NCBI RefSeq assembly: GCF_900102185.1
Contig: NZ_LT629690.1
Coordinates: 248,001 to 312,000 of the forward strand
Origin: Terriglobus roseus
Lineage (GTDB): Bacteria; Acidobacteriota; Terriglobia; Terriglobales; Acidobacteriaceae
Direction: 5' to 3'
DNA: 64,000 nucleotides
The position numbers and the translations under genes were made by a program. Below, piece after piece: positions 29,352 to 54,700 of the stretch; within the stretch, counting starts at the first letter, position 1, and every line of letters starts with the position of its first letter. The notes under the pieces are model-generated. The model saw only the letters and a list, made by a program, of their open reading frames with translations. It was not told the origin of the DNA and did not search any database.

Positions 29352-29519
29352 AAAAATAAGGGCTCCTCCACTTTGAGAGACGTCTCAGTGACGTGGGTTG
29401 CATGCACGCCAAACAGTGACAAGCAAATACTTCTCCAAATTCGCTGCGATTGAATACTGCCACAATCGACGGAAAAAGTTGTCAACCCCACAAATCACCT
29501 AAATCTTTCAAATCAAAAG

Positions 29520-29715
29520 AAATAGAGTTGGCAGGTTATTTTCCGCAAGTCACTAAAATAGAAATCAGGGGAAGTCGCGAACCCACAATCGTCAGCTAAA
29601 CCCTTTCGAAAGACGATTTTGCCCCTAACTTCAATGGATAGACGATTTTAGCGGCACTCGCAGCGTAACTCGTTTAGAAAGACGATTTTAGAAAGACAGG
29701 GGGAGGGGTACCCCC
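29520..29715 (-). repeat. ~200-bp dispersed intergenic element, copy A
   Basis: Shares long blocks with the inverse of 47676-47884: AATAGAGTTGGCAGGTTATT, CTAAAATAGAAAT, the motif AAAGACGATTTT three times (29609-29620, 29638-29650 as ATAGACGATTTTA, 29678-29690), and an end AGGGGGAGGGGTACCCCC (29698-29715). The middle (about 35 nt) is not conserved. It lies just downstream of the bactofilin gene, read in that gene's direction. No ORF, no terminal inverted repeats and no target duplication were noticed. Sequence 29352-29519 shows nothing else. Confidence 0.75.
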
Positions 29716-29736
29716 ACACTGCCATCCCCAAATGAG

Positions 29737-29758
29737 AAACCCCGCCGAAGCGGGGTTT
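29737..29758 (-). terminator. Terminator after the bactofilin gene
   Basis: AAACCCCGC (29737-29745), loop CGAA, GCGGGGTTT (29750-29758). It lies 20 nt downstream of the bactofilin stop on the minus strand. Confidence 0.8.
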
Positions 29759-29777
29759 TCTCGTAAAGCGGGTTTGC

Positions 29778-30320
29778 TTACGAAGCCGATTCCACGCCAA
29801 CAAGCTGGCCCTGTTCGGCCGGTGCGGATGCGGCGGCAGCAGCGGCAGCCTTCGGGTCGCCGGGCTTGCGGATGTCGATGCCGCCCTTGAAGAACGCGCC
29901 GTCCTCAATGGAGATGCGGGCTGCAATCACGTCACCCGTCAGCGAGCCTTCGCTGCGGATATCAATGCGGTCGCTTGCCTGGCAGTTTCCGCGAACCTTG
30001 CCCAGGACCACGATCTCGCGGGCAGAGATGTTCGCTGCAACCTGGCCATTGCGGCCAACGGTCACGCGGTTGCCGGGAAGGTTGATGGTGCCTTCAATGC
30101 GGCCATCGATGTAGAGCGATTCCGATCCGGTAACTTCGCCCTTGATCATCAGGCTCTTGCCAATGGTGGCCTGCTCACCGGTAGCTGCAGGTGCCTGCGG
30201 GCTGGCAGTGCGGGTGCTGGGCTGCTGTTCATACGACGACACAGCAGGCTGGCTGGGACGAACGGGTTCTGGGGTGGAGGGTGTGGCAGCGCCGGAGCCG
30301 GGAGTGTTGGGTTTCCACAT
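29778..30320 (-). CDS. Bactofilin family cytoskeletal protein
   Basis: 180 residues; the start was chosen at ATG 30320 (MWKPNTPGSGAATPSTPEP), with AGGAAA upstream. Disordered Pro/Thr/Ser N-terminus (1-50), central bactofilin beta-helix (about 55-152: TIGKSLMIKGEVTGSESLYIDG, RIEGTINLPGNRVTVGRNG, GDVIAARISIEDGAFFKGGIDI), and an Ala-rich end. Bactofilins polymerise without nucleotide and localise cell-wall enzymes or other machinery. It is monocistronic with its own terminator, and divergent from the next gene (244-nt spacer with no other feature). Confidence 0.93.
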   Translation of the reverse strand: MWKPNTPGSGAATPSTPEPVRPSQPAVSSYEQQPSTRTASPQAPAATGEQATIGKSLMIKGEVTGSESLYIDGRIEGTINLPGNRVTVGRNGQVAANISAREIVVLGKVRGNCQASDRIDIRSEGSLTGDVIAARISIEDGAFFKGGIDIRKPGDPKAAAAAAASAPAEQGQLVGVESAS

Positions 30321-47607: not shown

Positions 47608-47664
47608 TACTTCGTACCGTTCTCGAGTACTTCGTACTGTTCTCGACGCCTTCGGCGTGTTCTC
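47607..47664 (+). repeat. Tandem TTC-loop mini-hairpins, 20-nt period
   Basis: Three units start at 47607, 47627 and 47646/47: GTAC-TTC-GTAC, GTAC-TTC-GTAC, ACGCC-TTC-GGCGT. Each is followed by a linker of the form (C/T)GTTCTCGA or GTTCTC. Stems differ in sequence but keep pairing. Related units occur at 61160-61190. Confidence 0.7.
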
Positions 47665-47675
47665 TGGGGATAGGT

Positions 47676-47884
47676 GGGTACCCCCTCCCCCCTGTTTTTC
47701 TAAAATCGTCTTTCTATTCGACTTACGATTTTAGTGTCGCTAAAATCGTCTTTTCATTGGAGTTAGAGGCAAAATCGTCTTTCTAAAGGGGTTAGGAGCG
47801 GAGTTTGCAGCTCCGCCTATTCCGGGATTGATGGCTCTATTTCTATTTTAGAGATTGCGAGGAAATAACCTGCCAACTCTATTT
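47676..47884 (+). repeat. ~200-bp dispersed intergenic element, copy B
   Basis: Inverse-oriented relative of 29520-29715. Contains TAAAATCGTCTTT at 47701-47713, 47741-47754 and AAAATCGTCTTTCT at 47771-47784 (complements of AAAGACGATTTTA). Extra half-motif: ACGATTTTAG (47725-47734) and CTAAAATCGT (47740-47749) form a perfect 10-bp hairpin, which copy A lacks. A GCGGAG/CTCCGC hairpin lies in its variable middle (about 47798-47816). It ends in AATAACCTGCCAACTCTATT. It lies just 3' of pmbA in the sense direction, like copy A after bactofilin. Confidence 0.75.
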
Positions 47885-47954
47885 GGTTTGTTTTGATGGA
47901 GATGGGTGGGTTAGGGGCTTGACAGGATTTTCGCTCGTGCCTGTTCGTGTCTGT

Positions 47955-51790: not shown

Positions 51791-54700
51791 GTGAAAAGTT
51801 TTTCTCTCTTGTGTTCTCGTGTCGTTCGAACTGTCTGCCCAATTCTCAACAAAAAGAATGTAATAACGGCAGCGGCGATGCTTTGCGGCATATCTGTGGG
51901 AACGATGGTCCCCTGTGGCTATGCGCAGAGTGCGCACTTTAGCGGATCGCAAGTTACATTGCCGATCACTGGTCTGAACAACCCTGAGCAGATTGCGTCG
52001 GATGCCAATGGGAATTTATACATCGCCGATGTACTGAACAATCGCGTACTGAAGGAAACCCCGACTAACGGGAGCTACGTCCAGACCACGATCGGTGCCG
52101 GACTGTCTTCTCCGCGCGGTGTTGCGGTGGATGTCAGCGGCAACGTCTACATTGCCGACTCCGGTAATGGTCGGCTACTGAAAGAAACGTTATCAGGCGA
52201 CACGTACTCCCAGAGCACGGTCAGTAGTTCTGTTGGTGCGGCATGGAGTGTTGCTGCGGACGCGAGCGGAAATGTTTTTGTTGTAAATCCCGGCAGCAAC
52301 CAAACACTGAAGGAAACACCGTCAGGCAGCAGTTACGTTGAAAGCACGATCGGTACCGGGATATTGCTGCCGACCGCCGTAGCAGTGGACACAGTCGGCA
52401 ATGTTTATGTCGCTGACCTATACATGAACCAGGTTTACAAAGAGACGCTGACCGGTGGAAGCTACGTCCAAAGCACGGTCGTCAGCGGCCTGAACGCTCC
52501 CATCAGCATCACCGTGGATGCCAACGCGAATGTCTTTATTGCGGTCCTCGGTATCCCGGGCAATGCGCAGGCGAGCCAGATCCTAAAAGAGACGCCGTCG
52601 GGGAACAGCTACACCCAGAGCCTGGTGGGGAGCACTGCCTACAACGTTGGTCTTCCCTATATTTCGGCGGATGCCAACGGCGATATTTTGATGGCAGCTT
52701 TGGGTAGTGGTTCAGGCTTCATTGCCAAAGTGAGTCCGTCGTCCGGAGACTTCGGTGCCGTGAATGTTGGCAGTTACAGCTCGCCGGTATCGTTGATCTT
52801 TACGTTCGACTCGGCGGGTACCATTGCCACTCCGTCGGTGCTGACTCAGGGAACAGAAGGTCTCGATTTTACGGATGCTGGCACCGGAACCTGCACGAGT
52901 TCTACATATGCCGCAGGGACGAGCTGTACCGTTGATGTGCTTCTGAACCCGAAGTTCTCTGGCCCCCGTTATGGTGCGGCAGTGCTTCGATCGACTTCAG
53001 GAAATCTGATTGCTACTGGTTATGCTCACGGCTCTGGGGTAGGACCTCAGATCAACTTCCCGGCTGGCAATCTAAGCGCCCTATCCCTGAGCAATGTGAC
53101 GAGCCCGATTGCAATTGCTCAGGATGCAGCCGGAAATCTTTATATCGTCGAGGCCGTAAGTTCCGGCAGCCCTCAAAACGCAGTCGTTAAGGAGACCTGG
53201 ACGGGAAGTGGCTATACCCAGAGCGTTGTAGCTACGGGCTTTACGTATCCCATTGGGGTGGCGGTGGACGGAGCCGGAAATGTCTATATTGCTGACCAGA
53301 ATGCTACGAGAGTAGTGAAAGAGTCGCCCCTGAGTGGGGGTGGCTACACGCAAAGTGTAGTCTTCAGCGGCCTTGGCAATGTAGAGTCCGTGGCAGTTGA
53401 TGGTAGCGGCAATGTGTATATCGGAAGCCTGGCCTACAAACTATTGAAGGAAACATTGACTGGTGGCAACTACGTCCAGAGCCAGATTACAAGTTCTGTC
53501 TATCCGTGGGGAATTGCAGCGGACGAGAAAGGCAATTTGTATGTGAGTGATGGCTCAAATCAGCTTCTTAAGCAGACCCTATCCAACGGCAGTTATACAG
53601 AGAGCACGATTGCCAGTGGGTTAAGTGGACCCCATGGGACGGCTGTCGATGGAAACGGTAATGTCTACATTGCGGAAACCTTCGGAGATCGGATACTCAA
53701 AGAAACGCTTTCGGCTGGCACTTACTCGCAGAGCACGATCGCCAGCAACTTCGGTAATCCTTTCGGTATAGCAGTCGATGGGAGCGGCAACGTCTTTGCA
53801 TCCAGTGCTTCTGCCAACAGGGTCTGGAAATTGAATGTTGTAGATCCCCCGAGTTTGACCTTTGCAACAACGACTTCGGGTTCGACAAGCAGTGTGCAGA
53901 ATGTAACGGTTCAGAACGTTGGCAATTCCCCATTGAGTTTTCCGATTCCGATCTCTGGAAATAACCCCAGCATCGCTACGAACTTTAGCTTGAACAGTAC
54001 GGGAACGACGGCATGCCCTCTTATTGGGTCGGGTGCCTCGAACGCGGGAACACTGGCTGCAGGTGCTTCCTGCCAACTTTCTCTAAGCTTCGCGCCAACT
54101 GCAGCGGGCAACATCACTGGTTCGCTGGTATTGACGGATAACAATTTGAACGCGGCTGCTCCGAGCTATGCGACCCAAAGCATCGCGTTGAGTGGTACCG
54201 CGCTTGAGTTGCCGATACTGACTTTTGCAGCCATTCCTACGCAGACGTATGGCAATGCACCTTTCACTGTAAGTGCAACATCGGCTTCAACTGGAGGGGT
54301 TACCTACTCTGTTGTGAGTGGTCCCGCGAGCATCTCGGGGACGACAGTGACGTTGACTGGAGCAGGCACGGTCATGTTAAGGGCAAGCCAGGCAGCGAGC
54401 GGAAACTATGGCGCGGCGACTGGGACGACCAGCTTTGTTGTTATGCCCATGGTGCCAACGCTGACGTTTGCCGCGATCCCTGCACAGACGTATGGCAACG
54501 CGCCTTTCACTGTGAGCGCAACGTCTGCCTCAACTGGAGCCGTTACTTACGCCGTTGTCAGTGGTCCGGCAAAGATCGCCGGAGCGACGGTTACATTGAC
54601 TGGAGCAGGTACGGTGGCGCTGAGCGCTAGCCAAGTGGCCGACGGAAATTACGCGGCTGCAACGGCCACTACGAGTTTCAGCGTAGCGGCACAGAGCTTT

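Follow-up and report, generated by a model that had tools for sequence, protein, structure and literature searches.

Several described systems resemble, in one respect or another, the element considered here. REP, BIME and REPIN sequences are high-copy and extragenic, are associated with RAYT transposases, and have a family word that differs between species; pneumococcal BOX and RUP and similar small interspersed repeats are modular, intergenic and present in tens of copies. Among protein-binding sites, Tn7- and Mu-type ends and lambda-type attP carry several phased direct-repeat sites within about 200 bp, and parS, matS and SlmA sites are single short palindromes dispersed over a chromosome. 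There are also multi-copy sRNA families with repeated seed motifs, LhrC being an example.

The element compares with each of these in part. Like REP sequences it is high-copy and extragenic and has a species-dependent word, but REP is a palindrome of 20-40 bp, whereas the element is about 240 bp long, consists of direct repeats at rigid spacing and holds many stable positions; in the alignment of copies it is not a 20-40 bp imperfect palindrome. It is modular, intergenic and present in tens of copies, as BOX and RUP are, but is kept in place between species and has stepped spacers and a species-specific core. Tn7 and Mu ends and attP share its phased direct-repeat sites and a left end beginning TGT, but no element body was seen and no recombinase was noticed beside the copies, and the element occurs as dozens of single copies, many of them stable. 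As with parS, matS and SlmA there would be many dispersed protein sites per chromosome, but here the site is compound and not evenly spaced. Integron attC sites, which go with IntI, are folded single-strand sites in arrays, with RYYYAAC/GTTRRRY boxes that fit poorly by eye to the element, a dispersed single site. LhrC-type families likewise have three repeated motifs and several copies, but the element has no RNA structure support and its spacing follows the DNA helix. No known kind considered here unites an element of this size with stepped spacers, stable positions and a core that switches in concert.

Two copies in the window

The window, meaning the whole stretch of 64,000 nucleotides that was analysed, contains two copies with shared blocks, B being inverted relative to A (Table 1). 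The original prediction had described three AAAGACGATTTT-type motifs, a GGGGTACCCC-type end, a AATAGAGTTGGCAGGTTATT block and a variable middle, and all were found in both copies. The ends had to be redrawn: the true start lies about 41 bases further left, at CTGTCAAG/TTGTCAAC (29479 in A, 47925 in B), and the AATAGAGTTGGC block, taken earlier for an element end, is internal. As had been stated, neither copy contains a convincing ORF (a 92-aa ORF called mechanically at 29648-29926 runs over the end of A) and there are no terminal inverted repeats, the left end CTGTCAAGCCCC and right end GGGGGGAGGGGTACCCC not being inverted copies by eye. The gene 3' end said to lie beside both copies is present on the right side of A (bactofilin) and B (PmbA/TldD); to the left lie the 3' end of a DUF302 gene in B and the start of an ORF without Pfam match in A. 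A common orientation relative to the gene applies to A and B but not genome-wide, where orientation is mixed.

With one mismatch allowed, the motif occurs six times in the window, always inside A or B, where shuffles lead one to expect 0.19; since none of 100 shuffles reached six, chance similarity of A and B was rejected. A sequence model, R1, trained on 43 copies with A and B among them, matched nothing else in the window but A and B.

Table 1. Positions of the two copies and their parts in the window
Feature	Positions	Strand	Basis
Copy A, whole element, ~240-base family	29479..29716	+	R1 match 29480-29713, E 4.5e-52; ends from 45-copy alignment
A left end TTGTCAACCCC (consensus CTGTCAAGCCCC)	29479..29489	+	alignment
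A S0, degenerate fourth site	29498..29526	+	dyad TAAG-N17-CTTA by eye in G001
A TTGGC block, -35-like, 20 bp before -10-like box	29528..29544	+	alignment
A -10-like box CTAAAATAGAAAT	29553..29565	+	97% identity, 28 orthologous pairs
A variable slot	29566..29595	+	77% identity between orthologues
A repeat 1, core AGACGATTTT	29596..29620	+	motif search
A repeat 2, core AGACGATTTT	29625..29649	+	29 bp from repeat 1 core
A repeat 3, core AGACGATTTT	29665..29689	+	40 bp from repeat 2 core
A G-rich right end GGGGGAGGGGTACCCCC	29699..29715	+	alignment
Copy B, whole element	47676..47925	-	R1 match, E 1.7e-56
B left end CTGTCAAGCCCC	47914..47925	-	
B S0	47878..47906	-	
B TTGGC block	47861..47876	-	
B -10-like box	47839..47851	-	
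B variable slot, longer class	47796..47838	-	-10-like box to core 1 = 72 vs 59 in A
B repeat 1	47771..47795	-	motif search
B repeat 2	47742..47766	-	motif search
B repeat 3	47702..47726	-	motif search
B G-rich right end	47676..47692	-	

Other repeats occur in the same DNA. Window positions 54210-54678 hold two tandem direct copies of about 226 bp each, 74% identical. Ordinary REP-like palindromic short repeats (GTACGAAGTAC, GGCGTCGAGAACGG..., CCCCAGGTTCGCGAAGCTAACCTGGGG) exist separately from the element in these genomes: at 47610-47665 of the window, in the right flank of B; in several left flanks elsewhere (e.g. L042, L048, L176); and in G007 to the left of quite a number of element copies, where they build up blocks several hundred bases long.

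Spread across genomes and position in them

The original prediction of a dispersed element was borne out. The own genome (G000) has at least 51 matches to the sequence-only model (150 of 411 candidates scored), so the blocks are far from absent outside the window, and many more occur across the family; 49 listed own-genome rows, representing 48 loci, were used for analysis. BLASTN against the same genome gave 44 matches (40 of 50 candidates scored). The same model found 49 matches in G013 and 38 in G007, both sister species, and 31, 23, 13, 13, 5 and 1 in the more distant Terriglobus genomes G011, G005, G004, G001, G018 and G006; G002, G008 and G017 gave none in this genus-level search or in a fuller scan. 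A second model, trained on 51 Terriglobus copies, matched at least 168 of 300 family genomes and 49 of 79 genera. As the family and class surveys scored six candidates per genome, their per-genome counts are minimum values; no other model search scored more than 150 candidates. The fuller scan covered 12 genomes and found 71-83 matches in the five g42 genomes, 59 in G065, 43 in G297, 6 in G079 and 5 in G006, with 43-83 copies in seven of the eight genomes scanned from four other genera. At class level 80 of 299 genomes matched at E<=1e-4, other families included. Matches in eight other-family or distant genomes that were re-searched fall mostly in the right half, and remote copies read by eye have two or three TAAsTCCTTTnGAATC-like repeats, a G-rich end and, in some of them, a promoter-like stretch; of all the matches, these remote ones are the least certain.

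No copy among the 157 extends more than 40 bp into a predicted gene, as judged with a simple gene caller and, for a split copy, on the right half only. Median distances by species are 23-58 bp to the right gene and 79-219 bp to the left. Even spacing along the chromosome was considered and dropped (CV p 0.18, 48 loci), and 30 of 48 loci point toward the origin by a hand count on sampled skew, which is no clear bias. With spacing uneven and no clear orientation to replication, a chromosome-organising role is left without positional support.

Stepped spacing and species-specific cores

The consensus order of parts is CTGTCAAGCCCC, S0, TTGGCATGGTATTTCC, 8-9 bp, CTA(A/C)AATAGAA, the slot, three units of CTAACYCC..-AGACGATTTT, and AGAAAAACAGGGGGGAGGGGGTACCCC; in the general layout the -10-like box reads TA(A/C)AAT, the repeats read TAAsYCC-core and the right end is GGGGGGAGGGG. 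The word CTGTCAAGCCC is found 30 times in the own genome, 29 of them at elements, and the one stray looks coding by eye. One copy, at G000 3274654, has four repeats, spaced at 29, 29 and 40. The repeats have the look of protein sites with two arms, of which the left is conserved and the right changes: by eye, some repeats in G001 are near-perfect palindromes (CTAAGTTCTTCT-GCG-AGAAGAACTTAG in L068), and S0 in several G001 copies has a TAAG-N17-CTTA frame like that of the repeats.

Distances between the parts change in steps. From the -10-like box to core 1, scored in 130 of the 157 Terriglobus copies (27 were left out for a missing anchor, motif or range, and orthologues are included, so the copies are not independent), the distance is 58-62 in 95, 68-73 in 30, 76 in 1, 81-83 in 3 and 103 in 1, with none at 63-67. 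A period scan of these distances gave no single period (R 0.80-0.83 for 10.25-12 bp), and in the orthologous pair L001/L045 they are 59 and 81, two turns apart. An extra 22 in the left spacer is seen in three of the scored copies, which come from two clades (G000_2165790, G011_651875 and G011_4465142). A wider set of 52 other copies, 28 from four Terriglobus species and 24 from five other genera, has a left spacer of 47-49 in 43 and of 70-71 in 8, the remaining row being a partial match. Within it the distance from repeat 1 to repeat 2 is 29 in 50 of 52 copies, that from repeat 2 to repeat 3 is 40-43 in 50 (30 and 32 in the other two), and that from the TTGGC block to the -10-like box is 25-26 in all 52; its slots range broadly, from 42 to 94, and slot phasing is visible in the first set of 157 alone. 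Since the steps, of about 10-11 or 22 bp, recur in separate spacers and amount to one or two helical turns, they point to a DNA-protein assembly.

The second line of evidence is the 10-bp core, which is AGACGATTTT in G000, G007 and G013, TCTRATTTTT in G011 and G004, and of AGGAACTTA type in G001 and G018; in G005 it is nAGGATTTT, with a third repeat of GAACTTA type. Outside G000 the cores were read from part of the copies (20 in G011, 8 in G004, 18 in G005, 11 in G001 and few in G018). Three G000 copies with a diverged scaffold still carry GAnGATTTT cores, eight of nine being GACGATTTT. The core gave 132 matches, against 0 and 1 for the reversed control; of 100 listed, 95 are in elements and the other five look coding by eye, and the idea of an extra regulon of cores was set aside on that count.

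Cores also differ where the site itself is orthologous. At the rpmB/ZIP site, orthologous in both flanks, G007 has AGAAGATTTT, AGACGATTTT and AGAGGATTTT and G011 has TCTAATTTTT, TCTAATTTTT and TCTGATTTTT; at the NtrC site (diacylglycerol-kinase and dehydrogenase neighbours), again with both flanks, the core differs between G007 and G001; and at the rimO and radical-SAM sites, orthologous in the right flank, it differs between species (gene names at all these sites were assigned by eye). In each case the core is the local species word, with single-base variants. Two candidate cases were discarded: the 3455695 group (G000/G013/G007 with G011_4817414), first taken as a cross-clade orthologue, has different neighbouring proteins, and at response-regulator sites compared between genera the regulators differ. 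A core that is concerted across a species and differs at orthologous sites requires either a shared trans-acting partner or strong gene conversion. The switching suggests a co-evolving partner, and gene conversion could keep cores alike. Among the 25 gene-neighbour clusters listed, none offered a convincing partner or binding protein.

On balance, and with somewhat better than an even chance of being right, we favour a dispersed DNA site on which a dedicated, putative DNA-binding protein builds one large complex. Binding to the three repeats and S0 would be cooperative and confined to one face of the helix, with the promoter-like block that separates S0 from repeat 1 enclosed in the complex.

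Competing readings and the left edge

The rival that survives best, although we think it unlikely, is a set of multi-copy small RNA genes, in which the -10-like box would drive an RNA that exposes the three cores, ends at the G-rich tract and serves as a protein or mRNA sponge. The promoter-like block is indeed conserved (97%), some copies in another family of the class have TTGACA-N17-TATAAT-like promoters by eye, and many slots in other species contain hairpins, some of them terminator-like (by eye). That said, a terminator-like hairpin stands immediately after the promoter-like block in copies from at least four other genera (by eye), and a stepped spacer also occurs upstream of the presumed start. 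A structured small RNA finds no support: the fold z-scores of the window copies, -0.31 and -1.27, do not set them apart from shuffles, and RNAalifold on 43 copies returned -2.9 kcal/mol with one of 13 pairs compensated. The conserved 3' RNA of the original prediction is not supported either, on the same fold energies and weak consensus, on spacers that step by the helical turn, and on the 25 of 157 copies from which both neighbouring genes point away, so that no 3' end faces the element. An Rfam family, named earlier as something that might account for the similarity, was rejected, with 0 matches in the window reaching the gathering cut-off; a permissive scan around A gave 11 sub-threshold matches, 10 of them overlapping a hairpin at about 29734-29762, to the right of A.

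We rank next, as quite improbable, an old non-autonomous MITE-like mobile element spread by a lost or distant transposase. High copy number, dispersed intergenic positions and the existence of some split copies would suit it; the ends without inverted repeats (by eye) would not. Copy A has no blastn match at E<=1e-3 in 72,556 plasmid records or 50,697 phages, and a plasmid or phage origin was rejected on that result. Many copies are, moreover, orthologous across species, with 102 right-flank orthologous pairs among three species, 58 of which share both flanks. In 28 G000-G013 pairs (29 of 31 were kept, 4688605 and 2165790 being left out, and one more was skipped) identity is 96.4, 98.6 and 96.4% for the three cores, 97.1% for the -10-like box, 93.5% for the TTGGC block and 88.5-94.1% for the left arms; the tail stands at 91.1%, the left end at 87.2%, S0 at 82.8%, the slot at 76.7% and the link between repeats 2 and 3 at 75.6%. 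At each site the cores are slower to change than the slot and the link, against the expectation for a mobile element. Taken as a whole, the element (71-96% identity) is no better conserved than its flanks (76-100% over the adjoining 100 bp on the right, often coding); as it changes about as fast as they do, the case for selection is made by the differences between blocks.

The two sides of the element differ. Accessory DNA to the left varies between species and the right neighbour is conserved: 44 pairs share a right flank only, against five strong left-only pairs, the thresholds being unequal (right flank, 300 bp or more with the start no further than 250 bp away; left-only, 500 bits or more). 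These pairs share members, and a few of the right-only ones (3274654, 3274823, 4688605) also have a left flank in common once the threshold is lowered. In the 44, homology ends within 10 bp of CTGTCAAG in 27, inside S0 in 7 and further left in 10. Part of the asymmetry is explained by the right gene, which in general is about 30 bp away, and, the element end being conserved, an alignment edge at CTGTCAAG alone is no proof of precise joining. At eight loci compared over 20-kb upstream stretches (locus 729600 in G007 only), about 2.3-10.5 kb of unalignable DNA precedes the next conserved stretch in at least one genome, synteny resuming kilobases further left. At 3048357, for instance, genes for a GntR regulator, for a large membrane protein and for an M48-like peptidase make up the accessory DNA; the corresponding stretch in G013 is only about 77 bp long. 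A variable left segment in L251 (G007:C2:527000-546500) contains, by eye, a cytosine methyltransferase-like gene and a possible restriction partner.

Under the favoured reading, a protein complex on a dispersed DNA site, the complex would perhaps also mark a boundary on the chromosome or a point of exchange, given that the accessory DNA differs right up to the left edge and the right neighbour stays; we hold this role less firmly than the complex itself. Some sites go further. In G013_656820 the left flank is that of G000_2371018 and the right flank that of G000_1721867, and two loci are 98% identical in the blocks compared right of S0 but 44% and 54% identical in the left 48 bp, TGTCAA being retained, as if the left half had come with new DNA. 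Such cases invite a separate reading, which we consider a slim prospect: a family-wide and perhaps wider exchange system, in which accessory DNA brings along a CTGTCAAG-S0 left half and becomes linked to a right half resident at the site, and in which, as part of the same slim prospect, a recombinase would recognise TAAs-N16/17-TTA dyads, with a fast-evolving species-specific arm. Greater divergence of the left 48 bp in right-only pairs reached p 0.036 in one species pair, with 0.16 and 0.49 in two others, and no recombinase was recognised by eye among the 18 variable stretches listed from the eight loci or the 25 neighbour clusters listed.

Slots occasionally contain genes. In the copy at 3338256 (L024, G000:C1:3338256-3338767) the stretch from the -10-like box to repeat 1 is occupied by a complete gene of 102 aa with an ABM domain (PF03992, E 2.8e-6), which starts right after the box, as if leaderless; the G013 orthologue of this copy is without the gene. 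In L146 (G001) the slot holds a 72-aa ORF of no Pfam family. A promoter/operator cassette, with a repressor at S0 and the three repeats and with a slot or downstream gene as its target, would fit these two slots and is nonetheless the least probable of the readings, as no other slot ORFs were noticed in Terriglobus copies with both halves and in 29 of the 49 own-genome rows the downstream gene is oriented toward the element. Separately, ORFs in another family of the class (L306, L310 and L316 in G326, L311 in G514) start just after the promoter-like block and run through the repeats (by eye, possibly by chance), and L203 (G011:C1:3331081-3331833) is a split element with a tandem array (GCGGACGAGATCGAAGCAGTCGACGGAAGTA) and REP-like repeats in its slot.

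All told, an element in tens of copies per genome in several genera has no match in Rfam or in the plasmid and phage collections, and nothing on it was found in the open-access listings and abstract openings searched. The concerted switch of a 10-bp word at stable sites is a natural experiment on how a protein and its many binding sites change together. The identity of the partner would open this to direct test and show whether these bacteria have dedicated marking or exchange of chromosome segments.
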